A stretch of DNA of 32,726 nt, taken from Oscillospiraceae bacterium. Lineage in GTDB: Bacteria > Bacillota > Clostridia > Oscillospirales > Acutalibacteraceae. The notes beneath the pieces were generated by a model that did no database searches, was not told the origin of the DNA, and was given only the letters and a program-made list of their open reading frames with translations. The stretch spans positions 1-32,726 of the forward strand of contig SVQE01000003.1 in NCBI GenBank assembly GCA_015065505.1, read 5' to 3'. A program made the position numbers and the translations under genes. Shown in pieces: positions 4,237 to 21,378 of the stretch. Numbering within the stretch: the first letter of the stretch is position 1; every line of letters begins with the position of its first letter.

Positions 4237-4722
4237 ATGAGAATAGGTCATGGATATGATGTTCATAAGCTCGTTTCAGGCAGAAAGCTGATAATCGGCG
4301 GAGTTGATATTCCGTATGAACTCGGCTTGCTCGGTCACAGCGATGCGGATGTTTTGCTTCACGCGATTTCCGATGCGTTGCTCGGCGCAGCCGCAATGGG
4401 CGATATCGGCGGTATGTTTCCCGACACCGATGAAAAATGGAAGGGCGCAAACTCGCTGAAGCTTCTTCGTGCCGTTGCCGAAAGACTTTATGCAGCGGAA
4501 TACTATATTGAAAACATTGATTCAACTCTAATTGCCCAGGCACCCAAAATGAAGCCTTACATCGAACTTATGAGGCAGAATATTGCAAATGCCTGCTTGA
4601 TTGATGTATCCCAGGTCAGCGTCAAGGCAACAACCGAGGAAAAGCTCGGATTCACGGGAAGGGGCGAAGGCATTTCAGCTCATGCCGTAGCTCTGATAGA
4701 AAAGAGGACTTATATTGATTAG
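4237..4722 (+). CDS. ispF: 2-C-methyl-D-erythritol 2,4-cyclodiphosphate synthase IspF
   Basis: IspF cyclises CDP-methylerythritol 2-phosphate to methylerythritol cyclodiphosphate, releasing CMP. The 161-aa protein starts [11 protein letters not shown] (metal ligands Asp8 and His10) and continues with [20 protein letters not shown] (the third ligand, a His, near 42). FPDTD and [17 protein letters not shown] follow. The ATG at 4237 has AAAGGAG at 4225-4231; the frame is open further upstream only by chance. The last codons overlap the start of the sulfoquinovosidase gene by 8 bases, so the SQ cluster is physically and perhaps translationally attached to this housekeeping gene. Confidence 0.96.
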
Positions 4723-6700
4723 ATTTGAAAAAGAATACTGCACTCTGAATATCTTCCTCGGCGAAAAAAAGATTTTCACTGTTGACGATTCAGCGCTTGC
4801 AGTCGGCATAGGTGAAAACAGTTTTAATATGAGCCACGGCTCTTTTAAAATTCACGATACAATTCTCCTTAAAACCGCCATTAGCATCAAGGATGTTAAG
4901 CTTGAAGAAAACAGAGCTGTTTTATTAACCCGTTTCGGCGAGGTTTTCATTGAAAATGAAGGAAACAGAATTAAGGTTAGTTTTGATGGCTTTAACGATT
5001 ATAACCGCCTTTTTATAATACTTCCTGCTTTTGAGGATGAAAAGGTTTACGGAAGCGGCGAGATTTTCTCGGAATTTAATATTATAGGTGAAAGAGCAAA
5101 TGTGTGGGTTGCAGAGCATATAAATGCAATTCAGATTGCAAAGAAGCTTATTAAGCAGGTTGGGGGAATCAAAAACACCAAAAGAAAGCAGGCTTTCAGA
5201 AAGTATGAAACCTACTATGCACAGCCAACCTTTATAAGCTCAAAACGCTATTTCTTCCATTCACTTAACACCGCAAGGGCTTCCTTTGATTTCACCAATA
5301 ACGAAATTCACAGAATAAAGCTCGATGAAATTGCTCCGTTTTATATCGGCTTCGGCGAAAGCTATGAAGAGCTTATGCAGGGCATAACCGATATTGTTGG
5401 GCGTCAGCCCGAGCTTCCCGACTGGGTTTATGACGGACAGATTATTGCAACCCAGGGCGGCAGCGAAAGGCTTCTTGAAGCAAAGGAAATTACCGATAAT
5501 AACGGCATAGACACAACGGGCTTCTGGATTCAGGACTGGGAAGGCAGAAGAATAACCGCAGCAGGCAAGCAGCTTTACTGGAACTGGGAATGGGATGAAG
5601 AGCTTTATCCGAAGCTTGATGAAATCATTAAGGATTTCAATTCTCAGGGCAAAAAGGTTCTGGGTTATATAAATCCATTCCTCGCAGTTGAAAAGCCGCT
5701 CTATCAGGAAGCAAATAAAAAAGGCTACTGCGTTAAGGATAAAGACGGCAAGGATTATCTTGTTACAATAACAACATTTCCTGCCGCAATGGTTGATTTC
5801 ACAAATCCAAAAGCGTATGAATGGATTAAAAATATAATCAAAAAGAATATGATTGAGTTCGGTCTTTCGGGCTGGATGGCTGATTTCGGCGAATACCTGC
5901 CGACCGACTGCGTTTTATACAGCGGTGAGGACCCCGAGCTTGTTCATAACACCTGGCCTGCAATATGGGCTAAGATAAATAGGGAAGCGCTTGAAGAAAC
6001 GGGCAAGCTCGGTGAGATTATGTTCTTCACAAGAGCAGGGTATTCTGATACACCTCGCTATTCAACAATGATGTGGTGCGGCGATAACCACACCGATTTT
6101 TCAATAGATTTCGGTTTGCCGAGCGTTATTCCTGCAATGCTTTCACTTTCGGTTTGCGGCTTCGGTCTTTCACACAGCGATATCGGAGGTTATACCTCGT
6201 TCTTCAATCTTAAACGAAGCGAGGAGCTATATATGCGCTGGTGCGAAATGAATGCGTTTACACCTGTTATGCGCGGTCATGAAGGGCTTAACCCAGATTT
6301 AAACGCGCAGTTTGATGCAAGTGAAAGAGTTTTGGCGCACGGCGCTAAAATGACAAGAATACATAAGAATTTAAAGCCGTATCTCAAAGAAGCGGTTAAA
6401 TATAATTCAAAAACGGGCGTCGGTGTTATAAGACCGTTGTTCTTCTACTATGAAGAGGAGCAGGCGTATAACGAATGCTATGAATACCTGCTCGGACGCG
6501 ATATCCTCGTTGCCCCCGTAATAACTCAGGGTGCAGTTGAAAGAGAGGTTTATCTTCCAGAGGATGAATGGATTCACCTTTGGAGCAAAAAGGAATACAG
6601 CGGCGGAAATATAACCGTTGATGCGCCGATAGGCGAGATACCCGTTTTTGTAAGAAAATCAGCTAAAAATTTAATTGACATAATGTTGGAGGAAAAATAA
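4715..6700 (+). CDS. yihQ: GH31 sulfoquinovosidase-type alpha-glycosidase (YihQ family)
   Basis: This 661-aa enzyme belongs to the YihQ branch of GH31, which releases sulfoquinovose from glycosides such as sulfoquinovosylglycerol. The beta-rich N-terminal domain is followed by the catalytic barrel. The nucleophile is Asp390 in [13 protein letters not shown] and the acid/base Asp457 in [22 protein letters not shown] and [12 protein letters not shown] also match YihQ closely. WIQDWEGRR (270-279) and GKQLYWNW (284-291) form the sulfonate-binding region. As I recall the E. coli enzyme, Gln288, Arg301 and Trp304 contact the sulfonate; here they correspond to Gln273, Gln286 and Trp289, so the Arg appears to be Gln. 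The TTG start at 4715 follows AGAGGA and overlaps ispF. No signal peptide is seen, so it is cytoplasmic. The next gene starts immediately after the stop codon. Confidence 0.88.
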
Positions 6701-7387
6701 ATGAAATTCTTTTTAGACAGCGCAAAGATTGATGAAATCCGCGAGGCATACGATACCTTCGGAATCGACGGCATAACAACAAACCCGAATCATATTATGA
6801 ATTCGGGCAAGCCGTTTTACACCGTTATTGCAGAGCTTGCAGGCTTTGTTAAGGAAAAGGGAATTGAAGGTTGGGAAAAGTTTCCGATTTCTGTTGAAAT
6901 CAATCCCCATCTTGATGATGTTGATGAAATGGTTGAAATGGGAACAAAAATTGCAGCAATGAGCAGCAGCTTTGTTATTAAAATTCCCTGCACACCTTCA
7001 GGCATCACAGCAGCAAGAAAGCTTGAAGGAAAGGGAATCAGAACTAATTTAACACTTGTTTTTTCACCCTCACAGGCACTTATTGCTGCTAAGAATAATT
7101 CGCTCTTTGTTTCACCCTTCATCGGCTGGAAGGAAAACAGCGGCGAGGACTGCAAGGAATATATTGATAATATCGTTAAGATTTATAAAAACTACGGCTA
7201 CTACGGTAAAACCGAAATTATCTGCGCTGCAGTAAGAAACGGCAAGCAGATTGTTGACTGTGCAGTTTCCGGCGCAGATATCGTAACCGCAGGTCTTGAT
7301 GTCTATAAAGAAGCCTTCTATCATGCATTCACCGATTACGGACTTACAAAGTTCCGGAATGCGTGGGACAATACAATCACGGATTAA
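6701..7387 (+). CDS. sftT: Transaldolase, probable sulfofructose transaldolase
   Basis: This 228-aa protein is a small FSA/TalC-type transaldolase. In the transaldolase type of sulfoglycolysis such an enzyme splits 6-deoxy-6-sulfofructose, releasing sulfolactaldehyde and passing dihydroxyacetone to glyceraldehyde 3-phosphate to form fructose 6-phosphate. The start MKFFLDSA, the TTNPN motif, the Schiff-base lysine Lys94 in FVIKIPCT, NLTLVFSPSQ and SPFIGW are as expected for the fold. The sequence cannot separate sulfofructose from fructose 6-phosphate specificity; position between a sulfoquinovosidase and a sulfolactaldehyde-reductase-like gene makes the sulfosugar role likely. The ATG follows the preceding stop codon with no gap, and GGAGG lies within the end of that gene. 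Confidence 0.85.
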   Translation: MKFFLDSAKIDEIREAYDTFGIDGITTNPNHIMNSGKPFYTVIAELAGFVKEKGIEGWEKFPISVEINPHLDDVDEMVEMGTKIAAMSSSFVIKIPCTPSGITAARKLEGKGIRTNLTLVFSPSQALIAAKNNSLFVSPFIGWKENSGEDCKEYIDNIVKIYKNYGYYGKTEIICAAVRNGKQIVDCAVSGADIVTAGLDVYKEAFYHAFTDYGLTKFRNAWDNTITD

Positions 7388-7440
7388 TTACGAATTACGA
7401 ATGACGAATGACGAATTGAGGGCGGGGCACCCGCACCCGA
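7388..7440. repeat. Short tandem ACGAAT(T/G) repeat
   Basis: Four near-identical 7-base units (ACGAATT or ACGAATG) follow the transaldolase stop codon, then GC-rich CGGGGCACCCGCACCCG. Repeats of this type are common between genes in gut Clostridia. No coding or clear regulatory function is visible. Confidence 0.6.
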
Positions 7441-7456
7441 TTTATAGGAGCTTATT

Positions 7457-8320
7457 ATGAAAATTGGATTTATCGGGCTCGGAATTATGGGCGAGTCCAT
7501 GTGTGAAAACATTGTAAAAAAGCACGATGATAAGGTTTATTGCTCGGATTTAAACAGGGCGCAGGTTGATAAGCTTGCTGCTATCGGCGCAATAGGCTGT
7601 GAGAACAATATTGAAGTTGCAAAAAATGCAGATGTAATTATCTCAATGGTTCCAAAATCAGAGCATGTTAAGGCGCTCTATGAGGAGCTTCTGCCCTATA
7701 TTGATGATACAAAAATCTGCATTGATATGAGCACAATAGACCCATCTGTTTCAGTTGAGGTTTCAAAAATGATTAAAGCAAAGGGCGCTCAGTTTGCCGA
7801 TGCACCCGTTGTTAAATCAAAGCCTGCGGCTATAAACGGAACTCTCGGCGTGCTGGTCGGCTGCGATGAGTGCTTATATGAAACAATAAAACCCATATTG
7901 CAGTATATGGGATGCAATGTTATTCGTATGGGCGAAAACGGCGAAGGTCTTGCAATGAAAATCTGCCACAACACTCTTTGTGCGGAAATTCAGAACGGCG
8001 TTAATGAAACACTTCTTCTTGCACGCAGTATGGGCATAAGCCCCGAGGATTTCCACACGGCTGTTTCATACGGAGGTGCACAGAATTTCTATCTTGACGC
8101 TCAGTGGGAAAACATTGCAAACGAAAACTACACAACTGCTTTCTCGCTTGAGAACGAGCACAAGGATTTAGGCATTGCTCAGCGCCTTGCAGAGCAGCAG
8201 GGAATTGATATGCCGGGAATGGAGCTTGCTAAATCTGTTTATGATAAAGGAATGGAAGCCGGCATCGGTAAAGAGGACTGGCGCGCAACATATAAGCTTG
8301 TCAGAGGAGATTACAAATGA
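7457..8320 (+). CDS. 3-hydroxyisobutyrate dehydrogenase family; probable 3-sulfolactaldehyde reductase (YihU-like)
   Basis: This 287-aa beta-hydroxyacid dehydrogenase would reduce sulfolactaldehyde to 2,3-dihydroxypropane-1-sulfonate with NADH, regenerating NAD for fermentation. The Rossmann motif is GFIGLGIMG (4-12). The catalytic lysine is Lys168 with Asn172 in GLAMKICHNTL. The substrate loop normally reads DAPVSGG in 3-hydroxyisobutyrate dehydrogenases; here it reads DAPVVKSKPAAINGTL (116-130), replacing the Gly-Gly. E. coli YihU has a similarly altered loop (GRTSANA, from memory). GGAG lies 6-7 bases before the ATG, and the stop overlaps the next start as ATGA. Another 2-hydroxyacid semialdehyde substrate cannot be excluded from sequence alone. 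Confidence 0.83.
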   Translation: MKIGFIGLGIMGESMCENIVKKHDDKVYCSDLNRAQVDKLAAIGAIGCENNIEVAKNADVIISMVPKSEHVKALYEELLPYIDDTKICIDMSTIDPSVSVEVSKMIKAKGAQFADAPVVKSKPAAINGTLGVLVGCDECLYETIKPILQYMGCNVIRMGENGEGLAMKICHNTLCAEIQNGVNETLLLARSMGISPEDFHTAVSYGGAQNFYLDAQWENIANENYTTAFSLENEHKDLGIAQRLAEQQGIDMPGMELAKSVYDKGMEAGIGKEDWRATYKLVRGDYK

Positions 8321-9651
8321 GTTTTAATGCAGTATATATCCCGATAGGTGTACCGACCTTTCACCTTGAAAGCGCTCAGGCAGAATTTGAAAAATCAATA
8401 AAGCTGTTAAAGAGCATTGATGAAAACACGGCAGTTCCCGATGAAATGCTTCTTTCAATAGATAAGCTGAATGCATTTCTTGAGGGCAAAAACCCCGATT
8501 TGCTCATTGTTCAGAATATAACATTTGCAAACGCTGCATATATCAGCGAGGTTTTAAGAAGGTTTGACGCGCCCGTTCTTCTCTGGACTCTTCGCGAGCC
8601 CGTTATTGACGGCGGCAGACTTCGCCTTAATTCCTTAACGGGCGCATATTCGGCAGCAAATGCCCTCAAAGCCTTCGGCAGAGCCTTTGAATACATATTC
8701 GGCTCACCTGAGGAAGAAAGAGTTAAAGCAAAAATCAGTGCGGTTATTAATGCTGCCAGGATTAAAAAGGAACTCAAAAGCCTTAATATTCTTCAGGTTG
8801 GCCACACACCCCAGGGCTTCGGCTTCGGCAGAGCGCTTGATGCTGAAATGATGACAACCTTCGGTGCAAATCTTCTTTCAATAGAAGCAAGGGAGCTTAT
8901 TGATAACGCAAAAGCCTTCACGGATGATGAAATAAAGGAATACCTTGAAGATGCCAAAGAGAGAATAAACGGACTATGCAATATTGATGAAAAGAATGTT
9001 CTTGATTTTGCAAGGCTCTATAAGGCGTACAGCGATTATGTCAAGGCAAATAACATCGGAGCGCTTTCCTCGCGCTGCTGGCCCGATTTCTTTGTTTCCT
9101 TCGGAACGCCCGTTTGTTCCGTTTTGGGAATTCTCAATGATTTGGGTGTTTCATCAGCTTGCGAAGCAGATACCTACGGCGCACTTTCAATGTTCATAGC
9201 TCAGAAGTTAACTAATAAATCAGTTTTCTTCGGCGACCCCGTTTCAATGGATGAAAATGAAAACACCTTATCCTTCTGGCACTGCGGAATGGCTCCTTGC
9301 TCACTTGCAAGGGAGGATACGGGCGCTTGTGCAGGGCTTCACTGCAACAGAAAGATTGGCCCCACACTTGAATTTGGATGCAAAGCTGAAGAGAAGGTAA
9401 CCATTTTCAGAATCGGCAAGAAGGCGGACGGCGCTTTCAGAATGTTTATTTCAACGGGCGAGGCGCTTGATAAGCCGAGGCAGTTCCTCGGCACCTCAAT
9501 TGTTGTTAAAACAAAGAATAACGCATTTGATATTCTCAATTCGTCGGTAACGGACGGCTGGGAGCCCCATTTCGTTGTTGCAATGGGCGATATTGAGGAA
9601 GAGCTCAAAGAGCTCGGCAATATGCTTAATATTGAAACGGAGATTTACTAA
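8317..9651 (+). CDS. sftI: Fucose/arabinose isomerase-like protein; probable sulfoquinovose isomerase
   Basis: This 444-aa protein resembles the L-fucose/L-arabinose isomerase fold, with a Rossmann-like N-terminal part (LLIVQNITFANAAYI) and a metal-binding C-terminal part. Likely metal ligands are Glu283 (ACEADTYGAL), Asp307 (FFGDPVS) and His322 (FWHCGMAPCS). In the transaldolase sulfoglycolysis clusters of Firmicutes an isomerase of this class converts SQ to sulfofructose, instead of the epimerase-type YihS of E. coli. The gene overlaps the preceding reductase by 4 bases. Its function rests on fold plus neighbourhood; another aldose/ketose pair is possible. Confidence 0.78.
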   Translation: MSFNAVYIPIGVPTFHLESAQAEFEKSIKLLKSIDENTAVPDEMLLSIDKLNAFLEGKNPDLLIVQNITFANAAYISEVLRRFDAPVLLWTLREPVIDGGRLRLNSLTGAYSAANALKAFGRAFEYIFGSPEEERVKAKISAVINAARIKKELKSLNILQVGHTPQGFGFGRALDAEMMTTFGANLLSIEARELIDNAKAFTDDEIKEYLEDAKERINGLCNIDEKNVLDFARLYKAYSDYVKANNIGALSSRCWPDFFVSFGTPVCSVLGILNDLGVSSACEADTYGALSMFIAQKLTNKSVFFGDPVSMDENENTLSFWHCGMAPCSLAREDTGACAGLHCNRKIGPTLEFGCKAEEKVTIFRIGKKADGAFRMFISTGEALDKPRQFLGTSIVVKTKNNAFDILNSSVTDGWEPHFVVAMGDIEEELKELGNMLNIETEIY

Positions 9652-9662
9652 AAGCTTGAATT

Positions 9663-10415
9663 ATGGATTTTAAGGATATATTATTTCTGCTTGTTGTTTT
9701 TGTTTCAAATGTTATTCAAAGCATAACGGGCTTTGCAGGAACGGTTCTTGCAATGCCGTTTTCGATAATGCTTGAGGGCTATTCGGTTGCAAAGCCGATA
9801 CTGAATGTTCTCGGAATTGTTGTTTCCGTTGGCGTTGTTTCAATAAACAGAAAGGCGCTGAATAAAAAACAGTTCTTCAAAATGATAGGCGTTATGCTAA
9901 TTGGAATGACAGGCGGAATTCTTTTCACAAATCTGTTTACAATAAGCGCAAATCTGCTTTACAAGGTGCTTGGAATTATAGTAATCGGCTTTATGATTCT
10001 TGGCTGCTATCATTCGTTTTCCAAAGGCTATAAGGAAAAGCAGAAGAATAAAAAGCAGAAAACAAGCATTTGGTCATATATAGTTCTGATATGTGCAGGA
10101 ATAGTTCACGGAATGTTTGTTTGCGGAGGTCCGCTGCTTGTTGTATATGCAAGTGAAAACATAAAAAAGAGAGATGAATTCAGAGTAACGATTTCGGCAG
10201 TATGGGCGGTTTTGAACACAATTATTCTGTTTACGGATATTCGTGCAGGTTATTTCACGCCAAAGCTGTTTTTACTGCTTGGAATATCGGTTGCAGTGCT
10301 GTTTATGGCGCTCTTCCTCGGCAGCGTTATTCTGAAGCATATAAATAAAAAATGGTTTATGATAATAACCTATGTTTTAATGGGAATCAGCGGACTGTCG
10401 CTGATATTAAAATAA
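9663..10415 (+). CDS. TauE/SafE family sulfonate exporter
   Basis: This 250-aa membrane protein has about eight hydrophobic segments and the TauE/SafE pattern: the N-terminal QSITGFAGTVLAMPF repeat and the second repeat IVHGMFVCGGPLLVVYA. The family exports sulfonates and sulfite. In this cluster the likely cargo is dihydroxypropanesulfonate, the end product. It starts 11 bases after the isomerase with a poor ribosome binding site, so translation probably depends on coupling. Two strong hairpins follow the gene before the symporter. Confidence 0.87.
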   Translation: MDFKDILFLLVVFVSNVIQSITGFAGTVLAMPFSIMLEGYSVAKPILNVLGIVVSVGVVSINRKALNKKQFFKMIGVMLIGMTGGILFTNLFTISANLLYKVLGIIVIGFMILGCYHSFSKGYKEKQKNKKQKTSIWSYIVLICAGIVHGMFVCGGPLLVVYASENIKKRDEFRVTISAVWAVLNTIILFTDIRAGYFTPKLFLLLGISVAVLFMALFLGSVILKHINKKWFMIITYVLMGISGLSLILK

Positions 10416-10425
10416 ACCTATCCTT

Positions 10426-10530
10426 GCCTCCCTTTTATAAAGGGAGGCCGAGCTTGCGAGGCGAAGGGATAAAATTCTATTCAATCCCTCAGTCAACCGA
10501 TGTTTGACAGCTCCCTTTGGTAAAGGGAGC
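10426..10530. repeat. Paired palindromic repeats inside the SQ cluster
   Basis: Two perfect hairpins lie in this gap. The first is GCCTCCCTTT/AAAGGGAGGC with a three-base loop (10426-10448). The second is GCTCCCTTT/AAAGGGAGC (10510-10530). Between them runs an AT-rich stretch ending TCAATCCCTCAGTCAACCG. The two stems share the core CTCCCTTT/AAAGGGAG, so they belong to one repeat family, which also resembles the CTCCCTGTTAGGGAG hairpin near the left edge of the window. They may reduce read-through or stabilise mRNA ends between the exporter and symporter genes. Confidence 0.7.
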
Positions 10531-10563
10531 CGAGAATGGGATGCGTTTTATGGAGGTAAATTT

Positions 10564-11997
10564 ATGGCAGAAAAATCATTAACCCATGGCATTAAACTAA
10601 AAGACAAAATAGGATATGCGCTTGGTGATATGGGAGGTCTTTTAACCTTTGCCCTTATCGGCGCATTTCAGAATAAGTTTTATACTGATACCCTTGGTAT
10701 AGACGAGGGAAAAATTATTGTGCTTATTCTTATTGCAAGAATATGGGATGCAATAAACGACCCGCTTTGGGGTATGTTTATTCAGTCAAGAAAGCCGAGA
10801 AAAAGCGGTCAATTCCGTCCTTGGATTTTAGGCTTTTCAATTCCGCTTGCTGTTTCGGCAATCTTTATGTTCTTAAAGATTCCGGGACTCAGCTCTGCTC
10901 AGTACCTTGTTTATGCTTATATTACATATATCTGCTACGGAATGATGTATACAGCCGTTAATATTCCTTACGGTTCGCTTGCTTCCGTTGTTACTGATGA
11001 TGAGCTTGAGCGTTCATCACTTTCAATGTGGCGTTCAATCGGTGCAGGCGTTGGCGGACTTCCGGGAACAATTATTCTTCCCATGATTGTTTTCACAACA
11101 ACAAAGGTATTTGATAACGGAAGAAAGGTTCAGAATCTTGATGAAAACAAGCTCTTCTGGTGCGTTGTTGTTCTTTCACTGGTTTCAATCGGTGTCTACT
11201 TCCTTCATTACAAATTAACTAAAGAGCGTATTGCACCGCAGAAGAAGGCAAAGGATGAAAACTATAATCCGATGGCAACTCTTAAAGCACTTGTTACAAA
11301 CAGAGCGTTTATGATGCTTTGCTTTGCATCAATGCTTCTTATTGCGTTCCAGTTCTATTATCAGTCAACCTTCCTCTATCTTTTTGCCGATTTCTACGGT
11401 AAGGCAGGTCTTTATTCACTTGTTTCAATATGCACCTATCTGCCCATGGCAATATTCATTCCTATTATGAATAAGCTTATTACAAAATTCGGAAAAAAAG
11501 AGCTTTGTTCATGGGGAATGGTTCTTGCATCACTTGCATTCTTTGTTCTTTATTTCCTAAAAGATACATCTCTTGCACACAGCCCCTATGTTTTCCTTGC
11601 GTTTACCTTCATTTCTGGTCTCGGTCAGACATTCCTTGTTCTTGAAGTATGGGCGCTTGTTATGGATGTTATCGATTACCACGAGGTAAGAACGGGCAAA
11701 AGGGAAGAGGGAATGGCATATGCATTCTTCTCATTCACAAGAAAGCTCGGTCAGGCGCTTGCAGGCGTTGGACTCAACCTGCTTCTTAAAGTTATAAATT
11801 ATAACGGAAAGCTTTCCGAGCAGGGAATAATTCAGGATGCCCCCGTTCTTGCAAAGCTTTATAGTATTTCAACACTTGTTCCTGCAATAATGCTTGCAGT
11901 TATGGCAGTAACTCTGTTCTTCGGCTACAATCTTTCAAAGAAAAAGCTTGCCGAGGTACATAAGGAATTAGAAATTCAGCGTCAGGAGGAAGAATAA
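10564..11997 (+). CDS. GPH-family (MFS) sugar:cation symporter, probable SQ/SQ-glycoside importer
   Basis: This 477-aa protein has 12 predicted hydrophobic segments and the signature of glycoside-pentoside-hexuronide symporters: KDKIGYALGDMGG at the start, LIARIWDAINDPLWGMF and the basic loop SGQFRPWIL between early segments. E. coli uses two members of this family, YihO and YihP, for SQ and its glycosides, so a role as importer fits the cluster. The ATG at 10564 is supported by GGAGG seven bases upstream; the open frame continues upstream only into the repeat. The stop codon overlaps the next start (TAATG). Confidence 0.87.
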   Translation: MAEKSLTHGIKLKDKIGYALGDMGGLLTFALIGAFQNKFYTDTLGIDEGKIIVLILIARIWDAINDPLWGMFIQSRKPRKSGQFRPWILGFSIPLAVSAIFMFLKIPGLSSAQYLVYAYITYICYGMMYTAVNIPYGSLASVVTDDELERSSLSMWRSIGAGVGGLPGTIILPMIVFTTTKVFDNGRKVQNLDENKLFWCVVVLSLVSIGVYFLHYKLTKERIAPQKKAKDENYNPMATLKALVTNRAFMMLCFASMLLIAFQFYYQSTFLYLFADFYGKAGLYSLVSICTYLPMAIFIPIMNKLITKFGKKELCSWGMVLASLAFFVLYFLKDTSLAHSPYVFLAFTFISGLGQTFLVLEVWALVMDVIDYHEVRTGKREEGMAYAFFSFTRKLGQALAGVGLNLLLKVINYNGKLSEQGIIQDAPVLAKLYSISTLVPAIMLAVMAVTLFFGYNLSKKKLAEVHKELEIQRQEEE

Positions 11998-14495
11998 TGA
12001 AAGAGAATAAAATTCATGTTGCTTTCGGTTTCCATGTTAACTGCTATCACTCATACAGGGGTGATACAAACGATAATTTCGGCTTTGGTTCGGATATAAG
12101 AATCATCCGTCAGATTATCGATGTTCTCAATAAGTGCAATGAGGACGGAATTCCCGTTAAAGGCACCTGGGACAGTGAAAACTTCTTCTCGCTTGAACAG
12201 ATTCTTCCCGAATACGCGCCCGACATCATCGAGGGAATGAAGGAAAGAGTTAAGAAATACGGCGACGAGAATATCATTATGGGTTATTCAAACGGCGCTC
12301 TCGGCGCAATGAATGACGAGGAGTTTGAAGCTTCAATCGAGCTTGCCGTAACAAATGAGCAGGGAAGCGGACTTCAGGATATTTTCGGCGAATATGAAAA
12401 AATTGTTCGTCCCCAGGAGGTTATGTTCACGCCCTCGCAGGTAAGCCTCTATAACAAAACAGGTGTTAAGGCGCTCTGCCTCTATTATTCCTGCGTTCCG
12501 TTTGACGCGTTCAGAACAATAGTTCCGAAGCTTCCCGATGAAATTGCTTTCAACCCCGTTAAGTATACTTATAAGGGCGAAAGCATGACCATAATTCCAA
12601 CCTATTCAAACTCGGATGTCTGCGATGCAGGCTGTCTCAGAGGTTGGGTTAAGGAGCTTCGCGCAAAGCAGGAAAGCGACGAAATAAACAACGATATGTT
12701 TATTTTCATCAATATGGATGCCGACAGCGTTTTCTGGGAGCCGATGAGCATTCCGCTTCTTAAGGGCAAAATCGCGAATACCGACGGCATCAACGGTCTT
12801 GTTCGCGAAATCGCAGACCTTGACTACATTGTTTTTGATACCCCGGGCGGATACATTAAAAATCACGCGCCCATAGGTGAAATCAATTTCACGCAGGATA
12901 CTGCGGACGGTAACTTTGCAGGCTATGCTTCATGGGCTGAAAAGCCGTATAACAGAAAAATCTGGACTCAGATTGAAAGAGCAAGAGCAATGAGCAAGGT
13001 TAACGCGGAAAGTGATTTCGATTCACCCTCGTTCAAAGACAGAGTTCTCCTGCTTTCAACTACCCACTTCGGTCTTGCAACTCCCGTTTTGAATATTCAG
13101 CGTGAGAAGAAGGCTGATGAGCTTGCAGCTAAGATTATTGAAGAGGAAAGCTCGGCAATTGAAAAAACAGCAAAGCTCACTCTTAACAATATAACAAAAT
13201 CGGATTTTCAGTGCATTCAGCTTAAGGTTAATGCAGATATAACCGACGCTTCGCAAATTAAGCTCACATCAAAGGACTTGAAGGATTTTGCAATTATCCC
13301 GATGGATGACGAGCTCGGCAGCGTTTTCGCTATGATGAAGTTTAAATCCGTTAAGGATAAATATGAAATCGGCGTTTCACTTGTTGAGCCAAAGCTTACA
13401 CCCGATGCAGATTATGCTATTAAAACAGATAATCTTGAAATGAGATTTTCCGTTCATGGCAATCTTTATGCTGTTTATGCAAACGGCAAAAAAATTGGCG
13501 ACGAAACCTTCCTTAAAGGCTTCATCACCTATGATAAAACAGAGTATGGTTTTGAGAATGTTACCGCATCGCCGCTGACTCTCGGCGGCTCTGGCAAGGG
13601 AATAAGGGTTAGCGGAATAATCAACCTTCCCAATCAGACAGAGCAGGGCAATTTCACTTTTGATTTCTTCACAATGGATTCAAGCGATGCAATCTTTGTT
13701 AAATCAACAGTTAATTATCCCTATACGCCTGAAACGACATCAATTTCAACAGAAAATTCATCACTCGGAAGATTTTCGGATATGAACTGGAAGGAAGCAG
13801 TTCCGTTCCAGATTACACCTAAATTTGAAGGCGATATTTCGGTTATTAAACGAAATTATATGGGCGATATTTCATCGTTCAGAACTCAGTGCTTCCCCGA
13901 ATGTGATGAAAAGAACAAGAAGGTTTATTCCTTCAACCATCAGTTAACCGCAGGCTTGGTGGGCTTAACGGACGGCGAAACGGGAATTGCAATAGCAAAT
14001 GCGCGCCAGGTGCTTAATTCAATGGCGCATTGCCCGATGAGACTTGATGAGGATAAAACAGTTCATATGAGCCCCTTCGGAACCTTCTACGGTCCTCAGC
14101 GCCACCACTGGGGCAGGGCAAATGATGAAATCCTTGCAACCTATACCCTTGTAACACCCCAGGGCAAATCGCTCGCACCTGCGTATAACGGCAACAGCGA
14201 AACTGCGCTTATGGGCATATATGCTTTCAGCGGTGCACAGCCCGTGGGCGAACAGCTTGAAGAAATTCTTGCCTTTGCAGACGGCTGCGTTGCAACTGAT
14301 AACGATGAGGGAATTCTCACTCCGTTTTATGATGATAATGTTAAATTCAAGGAAGCTAAAGCAGATTCAATCGACGAAAGCAAGCTTAAAAACCCGATTA
14401 TGACAGGCTTTGCAGGCAACTTCAAAAACTATGTCACAAAGGGCTCAAAAGCTATCCGCCACATTATCAAGGCTCAGAGAAAAGCAAGAAAATAA
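11997..14495 (+). CDS. Large uncharacterised GH38/GH57-like protein of the SQ cluster
   Basis: I do not recognise a named family for this 832-aa protein. The N-terminal half looks like a GH38/GH57-type (beta/alpha)7 barrel: a first strand IHVAFGFHVNCYHSYRGD with His7 and His13, GTWDSENFF with Asp59, IIMGYSNGALGAMNDEEF, MFTPSQVSLYNKTGVKAL, then FIFINMDADSVFWEP near 245, each where these folds carry active-site residues. The C-terminal half (from about 400) is beta-rich, like the sandwich domains of GH38. There is no signal peptide or membrane segment, so it is likely cytoplasmic. It is coupled to the symporter through a TAATG overlap. A glycoside hydrolase acting on an imported SQ-containing substrate is a fair inference, not shown. 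The barrel assignment is by eye. Confidence 0.6.
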   Translation: MKENKIHVAFGFHVNCYHSYRGDTNDNFGFGSDIRIIRQIIDVLNKCNEDGIPVKGTWDSENFFSLEQILPEYAPDIIEGMKERVKKYGDENIIMGYSNGALGAMNDEEFEASIELAVTNEQGSGLQDIFGEYEKIVRPQEVMFTPSQVSLYNKTGVKALCLYYSCVPFDAFRTIVPKLPDEIAFNPVKYTYKGESMTIIPTYSNSDVCDAGCLRGWVKELRAKQESDEINNDMFIFINMDADSVFWEPMSIPLLKGKIANTDGINGLVREIADLDYIVFDTPGGYIKNHAPIGEINFTQDTADGNFAGYASWAEKPYNRKIWTQIERARAMSKVNAESDFDSPSFKDRVLLLSTTHFGLATPVLNIQREKKADELAAKIIEEESSAIEKTAKLTLNNITKSDFQCIQLKVNADITDASQIKLTSKDLKDFAIIPMDDELGSVFAMMKFKSVKDKYEIGVSLVEPKLTPDADYAIKTDNLEMRFSVHGNLYAVYANGKKIGDETFLKGFITYDKTEYGFENVTASPLTLGGSGKGIRVSGIINLPNQTEQGNFTFDFFTMDSSDAIFVKSTVNYPYTPETTSISTENSSLGRFSDMNWKEAVPFQITPKFEGDISVIKRNYMGDISSFRTQCFPECDEKNKKVYSFNHQLTAGLVGLTDGETGIAIANARQVLNSMAHCPMRLDEDKTVHMSPFGTFYGPQRHHWGRANDEILATYTLVTPQGKSLAPAYNGNSETALMGIYAFSGAQPVGEQLEEILAFADGCVATDNDEGILTPFYDDNVKFKEAKADSIDESKLKNPIMTGFAGNFKNYVTKGSKAIRHIIKAQRKARK

Positions 14496-21031: not shown

Positions 21032-21378
21032 GGGGATGAAAGGATATCGACAGGTTCGGTGAGGCTTGGTCAGCGAGCAGCGGAGTTGCACCGCTTTAAA
21101 AGTAACACATTAAAAATAACTGACAATAATAAAACAGTTCTTCGCGCTGCCTAAGCAGCGTGCGTCCTGATTAAGAGTGCCGCGGCTTAATTAAGGGCGT
21201 CGATTAGCGGCGAACATGAACGGGGGATTGGCTCGGCTCCCGTCAGGTATAAGAGTCTACCGTAACTGAAAGGCTGTTTGCCGCCGTTCAGTGAGGGGAA
21301 TCCTAACGACAAACTACGCCCGTAGAGCCCTTGTTGAGCTGAGTTTGGACGCGAGTTCAATTCTCGCCATCTCCACCA
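21032..21378 (+). ncRNA. ssrA: Transfer-messenger RNA
   Basis: The 5' end GGGGATG pairs with CATCTCC at 21369-21374, followed by ACCA, with one G-U pair. The 5' region has GGATATCGACAGG, close to the canonical GGAUUCGACGGG, and the 3' end has a T-arm with GTTCAATTC. Several pseudoknot stems lie between. The tag frame ends in a TAA placed in the loop of the hairpin CGCGCTGC-CTAA-GCAGCGTGCG, the usual place. With GAC at 21122 as resume codon (TAACT just before it resembles the E. coli TAGTC), the encoded tag is (A)DNNKTVLRAA, stop at 21152-21154. The resume codon is inferred. Any promoter would fall inside the hairpin array, so processing from a smpB transcript is possible. Confidence 0.93.

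Follow-up and report, generated by a model that had tools for sequence, protein, structure and literature searches.

A GH57/GH38-like protein coupled to a sugar symporter at the end of a sulfoquinovose operon: a candidate enzyme family that is probably not specific to sulfosugars

Why should a gene cluster that already encodes a standard sulfoquinovosidase carry a second glycosidase-like gene? The question arises from a stretch of 32,726 nucleotides of an uncultured Oscillospiraceae gut bacterium (assembly GCA_015065505.1, contig SVQE01000003.1, positions 1 to 32,726; here called the window), in which a gene cluster that looks like an sft (sulfo-transaldolase) operon for sulfoquinovose (SQ) is followed by an open reading frame for an 832-residue protein, termed X (11997..14495, plus strand, ATG start). 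A first-pass annotation, made from the sequence alone, had described X as a protein of glycoside hydrolase (GH) type, related to GH38 and GH57, that was fixed in the SQ cluster and was a candidate for sulfosugar processing. We favour, with a probability of roughly 55%, the reading that X is a new enzyme of the GH57/GH38 superfamily, probably a retaining glycosidase or transglycosidase, which is the partner of a GPH-family symporter and is not specific to SQ.

The first base of the X start codon ATG (11997-11999) is also the last base of the stop codon TAA (11995-11997) of the upstream gene, which encodes a GPH-family sugar:cation symporter (10504..11997, plus strand; TIGR00792, 299.6 bits against a cut-off of 231.35), and an AGGAGG resembling a ribosome-binding site (11984..11989, plus strand) sits inside the symporter gene, 7 bases upstream of the X start codon. 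The size of the frame and its overlap with the symporter stop codon had thus been read correctly at first pass. X is genuine rather than a chance frame: its homologues are 45-94% identical and mostly form full-length open frames, the others being interrupted mainly by contig ends. Since the next two annotated downstream genes, one YlmH-like and then a TrmO gene, both lie on the opposite strand, the operon appears to end with X. The coupling to the symporter points to an imported small substrate, and we propose that X is translated together with the symporter and acts on a small glycoside that the latter imports. Inspection by eye revealed no hydrophobic N-terminal signal, which suggests that X is probably cytoplasmic. 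Scans of X against Pfam (at E 0.01) and NCBIfam returned no family, and X would found a new cytoplasmic enzyme family within the GH57/GH38 structural superfamily.

In AlphaFold2 (AF2) models, the catalytic half of X (residues 1-390; 11997..13166, plus strand) forms a beta/alpha barrel with a helical segment, for which Foldseek/VIA comparisons are best to GH57. The best Foldseek match of this half is the GH57 4-alpha-glucanotransferase 1k1x from Thermococcus litoralis, which is only 14-16% identical to X but aligns over both of its domains, and the predicted barrel has the GH57 arrangement. The following region (residues 392-772; 13170..14312, plus strand) is predicted to be beta-rich, as had been claimed for the C-terminal half, and resembles GH38 C-terminal domains. 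Over its full length, the model shows the barrel, helical and beta-sandwich domains in the order found in GH38 alpha-mannosidases (3lvt, 5kbp, 2wyi and 6lz1, 9-11% identical to X), with a Foldseek E value of 6.8e-20 against GH38 structures. The GH38/GH57 fold proposed at first pass is therefore supported by structure prediction and fold search, and the three motifs on which the proposal had been built (HVAFGFH, GTWDSENFF and NMDADSVFWEP) are all present in the N-terminal half.

Conservation was assessed in 81 X-family sequences reaching down to 45% identity with X. Of 147 strictly invariant positions, 117 fall within residues 1-390, and the conserved acidic residues follow each other in an order that fits the GH38/GH57 fold. 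E141 (codon 12417..12419, plus strand; 81/81) stands in RPQEVMFTP, and the spacing of RPQEVMFTP...G equals that of WLPECAYTP...G in GH57. The D-A-D of residues 241-243 (12717..12725, plus strand; D241 in 80/81, D243 in 81/81) was placed by eye against YDAELFGHWW of GH57. From conservation and spacing we infer that E141 and D241 are likely the catalytic residues, and X would most likely be a glycosidase or transglycosidase of the retaining kind, in which E141 would serve as the nucleophile and D241, or possibly D243, as the acid/base. X departs from GH57 in having a second conserved Asp, and H357 (13065..13067, plus strand; 81/81) stands, by placement by eye, where four bacterial GH57 sequences have Asp. 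GH38 enzymes have a metal site with an H-x-D motif, an Asp nucleophile and a further His, and all 15 GH38 sequences that we compared have these residues. The H-V-N of residues 13-15 of X (12033..12041, plus strand; H13 and N15 in 81/81) may correspond to the H-x-D motif and H357 to the His of QFHDI, with N15 standing for Asp and E141 for the Asp nucleophile; H13, N15 and H357 perhaps mark a metal site of the GH38 kind in X. In rankings of ungapped windows, H357 came 1228th of 196040 against GH57 and 1231st of 240526 against GH38, and H13 came 4995th of 244602 against GH38.

The family is narrow in its distribution, and all of the following counts include the window's own genome. Within the window's genus, 31 of 80 genomes carry X; it was also found in 20 of 398 genomes sampled from the family (12 of 135 genera), in 2 of 295 from the order, in 2 of 391 from the class (the second being an 18.8-bit partial match) and in 1 of 398 from the phylum; a plasmid search gave no match. 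A search of GTDB genomes gave 68 related loci, 53-94% identical, and the animals named in their titles are deer, goat, sheep, cattle, horse and rabbit ('Lapin'). The symporter subfamily (38% or more identical) is present in 26 of the 68 loci, and among 19 loci from other genera it adjoins X in 8. A tree of 66 symporters contains one clade (support 98) with all 37 X-adjacent proteins and 10 of 11 from sft loci that have no adjacent X, and the deep branches of this clade adjoin X but not sft genes; the sampling is biased, however, long branches meet so that the deep order is unsure, and the 'nosft' label also covers loci cut short, including the window's short locus L001 (loci are cited by our own numbers).

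Several results weigh against our reading. The other 11 of the 19 loci from other genera have no adjacent symporter of this subfamily, and ten genomes of the window's genus that have neither X nor SftI, the SQ isomerase of the sft pathway, carry symporters of the subfamily (55-71% identical). The pairing of symporter and X is therefore recurrent, not exclusive, and the idea that one symporter clade belongs to X and sft genes alone was rejected. As to the residues, AF2 confidence is lowest in the active-site loops. The ungapped window pairing E141 with the GH57 Glu ranked 165th of 190694 at length 22 and 2602nd of 196040 at length 16, and the one for D241 was weak (8643rd of 197838); neither the pairing of H13 with the GH57 His (127605th of 199644) nor, in the absence of gaps, that of E141 with the GH38 Asp (102396th of 240526) was supported, and at length 16 the highest-scoring GH57 windows (X 127 with GH57 222 and neighbours) lie off the diagonals of the proposed mapping. 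Profile-profile comparison, with hhalign among the routes, gave probabilities of 0.2-0.7% for GH57 and 5.8-10.2% for GH38 and did not show homology, whereas a control comparison of GH38 against GH57 reached 74.8%, with the GH38 Asp aligned to the Glu of GH57.

Among the 240526 GH38 windows, the top-scoring one aligns X 72 with GH38 71 on a near-collinear diagonal, and hhalign selects the same stretch (E 0.0037, probability 8.9%). Greedy alignments were better than reversed controls for GH38 (E 0.0031 against 0.15; C-terminal part 0.0075 against 0.13) but not for GH57 (0.12 against 0.064), and therefore prove nothing. Searches of the PDB with phmmer and hmmsearch found no homology. X had no match to the Pfam GH57 model PF03065 at E 0.01; 4 of 62 members matched it weakly (best E 0.026), and the match of one of them (L228), over residues 68-162, is sub-threshold (14.3 bits, cut-off 21.2). 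The GH38 model PF01074 did not match at the X locus, though it matches three other places of the same genome, where three ordinary GH38 genes are found (contigs C3, C50 and C52).

Is X, then, a second sulfoquinovosidase, acting on larger or differently linked SQ glycosides? X ends an sft operon and is coupled to its symporter, and inside the genus its association with SftI is strong. With a strong SftI match defined as E below 1e-100, 27 of the 80 genomes have both, 4 have X only, 11 SftI only and 38 neither, so that SftI occurs in 27 of the 31 genomes carrying X and in 11 of the 49 lacking it (odds ratio 23, p 1.1e-8, uncorrected for kinship). Among the 27 genomes with both genes, 16 have them on the same contig; they are on separate contigs in five genomes with near-group X (66% or more identical) and in six with X of a group 57-61% identical. 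In the latter group X is not near SftI, and 6 of its 8 carriers have SftI on another contig (p 0.006 against the 11 of 49 genomes without X). According to PMC13219744, some rumen SQ degraders, Caproiciproducens without YihQ and SqgA, either rely on others or hold a yet unknown sulfoquinovosidase.

These points notwithstanding, dedication to SQ was not supported. X is absent from 11 of the 38 SftI-positive genomes of the genus, so that the claim of a gene fixed in the SQ cluster stands as a co-occurrence but not as a rule. Outside the genus, 17 of 19 X carriers, in genomes 86-99% complete, have no close SftI; two have one, and one more has a 27% identical match. Counting as sft genes the transaldolase, 3-sulfolactaldehyde (SLA) reductase, SftI or TauE protein at 45% identity or more and leaving out the symporter, at least one was present in 20 of the 68 X loci (SftI in 15 of those) and none in 48, many of the loci being short contigs; of the 34 loci at least 15 kb long, 12 had an sft gene and 22 had none. 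X homologues are hence not confined to genomes with sft genes and lie mostly away from sulfosugar genes, largely the distribution that the first-pass annotation had itself named as speaking against its proposal. In the X tree, sft-linked sequences fall into at least three groups, one of them being L005/L006, which carry a symporter-only label in the tree but proved to be sft-linked through L151 and L153, and a 28-member clade has no sft gene beside X, although in six genomes of this type SftI lies elsewhere. A comparison of 18 sft-linked X sequences with 56 others (residue in at least 90% of the former and at most 20% of the latter; 7 ambiguous sequences left out) gave five distinguishing positions, all past residue 588 in the C-terminal part, which speak for a dedicated role, but no barrel position that separates the two sets; the barrel therefore does not differ between X proteins with and without sft neighbours. 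Furthermore, a GH31 sulfoquinovosidase of YihQ/SftG type is already encoded in the window, as stated at first pass (4715..6700, plus strand; NF007746, 756.8 bits against a cut-off of 553; 5aed, E 7.1e-187). Taken together, a second sulfoquinovosidase appears unlikely, though X may act on an SQ glycoside in the window's own operon.

The preferred reading, an enzyme that is not SQ-specific, follows from the same conserved barrel standing beside many other sugar genes: GH127, GH30, non-YihQ GH31, GH32, GH130, GH3 and glucuronate isomerase genes lie within a few positions of X. The substrate is thus probably a more general plant sugar compound. The attachment of X to the SQ operon in the genus suggests one that the bacteria encounter alongside SQ glycerol, for instance an acidic glycoside or the headgroup of another thylakoid lipid, and the genus-level addition of the symporter-X pair would probably widen the range of plant glycosides imported along with SQ glycerol. 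X represents an undescribed and highly conserved family of putative enzymes of gut Clostridia, with a physical link to a sugar symporter and, within a single genus, to SQ breakdown. It illustrates that a gene seemingly fixed in the operon of one genus can elsewhere act as a general partner. If active, X would be a candidate for a new CAZy family placed between GH57 and GH38, and it could point to a rumen-used plant glycoside overlooked by present annotation.

The sft operon of E. rectale (SftG, SftI, SftT, SftR, SftE and SftX) has the same kind of pathway genes as the window, which lacks SftX, and an X-like gene does not figure in the part of its description that was available (PMC11968277). 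X could share with YihQ/SftG of GH31 and with GH188 (SqgA), described in PMC11465081 as an NAD-dependent sulfoquinovosidase family, the role of releasing sugars from plant glycosides; it matches no GH31 model of Pfam or NCBIfam. A narrow search of the accessible parts of the SQ literature (PMC11968277, PMC13219744, PMC11659671 and PMC11465081) found no gene like X described, which is no proof that X is unpublished. A more speculative reading, to which we give little weight, would have X found a new glycoside hydrolase family that bridges GH57 and GH38 by combining a Glu/Asp catalytic pair with GH38-like metal-site histidines; X and the symporter would then make up a module that imports and cleaves an acidic plant glycoside, with SQ glycosides resistant to GH31 and GH188 enzymes among its substrates.

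X might also not be a glycosidase at all but a metal-dependent deacylase or deacetylase, its barrel resembling CE4 deacetylases as well, or a catalytically altered scaffold. This is improbable, since the CE4 fold matches are limited to the barrel (about residues 2-300) whereas the matches to GH38 and GH57 extend over the helical and beta domains as well, the acidic residues show little or no variation, and X occurs together with a carboxylesterase in 17 of 31 X genomes, which argues against a simple replacement of one by the other. Least probable is a transglycosidase or glucan-remodelling enzyme of general metabolism, akin to 4-alpha-glucanotransferases and functionally unrelated to the adjoining sft operon, for which the two-domain match to 1k1x and the GH31 neighbours at several unlinked loci (7 tested, none above the YihQ cut-off) would speak, but the narrow distribution of X is unlike that of core glucan enzymes and the symporter coupling points to an imported small substrate.

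The carboxylesterase is itself a recurrent neighbour of the symporter. In the ten genomes with neither X nor SftI, 7 of 10 symporters adjoin a carboxylesterase and/or another GH31, and the symporter is thus a hub whose changing enzymatic partners are the sft pathway, the esterase with GH31, or X. The esterase-GH31 pair recurs beside the same symporter subfamily at L234, L236, L238, L239, L241, L243 and L141-L143, the last three adjoining sft operons without X. X and this pair as mutually exclusive symporter partners were considered and rejected, given the 17 of 31 X genomes with the esterase (odds ratio 1.9, p 0.17). In another sft operon without adjacent X (L132), a ZnuA-type metal ABC transporter follows the symporter; gene sizes suggest that L133, L136 and L139 perhaps share this arrangement, which is annotated in L132 only.

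The remaining genes of the window operon all lie on the plus strand. After the GH31 come an SftT-like transaldolase (6701..7387; PF00923, 142.6 bits; TIGR00875 under its cut-off), a dehydrogenase resembling SLA reductases (7457..8320; 152.4 bits against an NCBIfam cut-off of 348, under equivalog cut-offs), an SftI-like isomerase (8317..9651; NF048012, 428.8 bits, below the cut-off of 700) and a TauE-family exporter that is SftE-like by position (9663..10415; PF01925, 66.7 bits, cut-off 32.6). SftX (DUF4867) and a ROK-family regulator, which many relatives carry among these genes, are missing from 6701-11997. The GH31 has Gln where 5aed (E. coli YihQ), 6pnr (E. rectale SftG), 8r56 and 5ohy have an Arg that we take to be the sulfonate-binding Arg301 of YihQ. 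A loss of SQ specificity by this enzyme as the reason for X was rejected, as the Gln is common to all 28 motif-bearing sft GH31 proteins encoded at the fetched loci, whether X is present or not; a neighbouring Arg (GRR instead of GIR) may compensate. Reduced operons of an SLA-reductase-like gene, the symporter and X occur at L028, L033 and L061, whose fetched stretches contain no SftI, transaldolase or YihQ-type GH31, and at L028 and L033 the reduced operon lies between a chaperonin-like gene and argininosuccinate synthase. Elsewhere in the window, positions 21032-21378 hold a transfer-messenger RNA gene with the tag DNNKTVLRAA.

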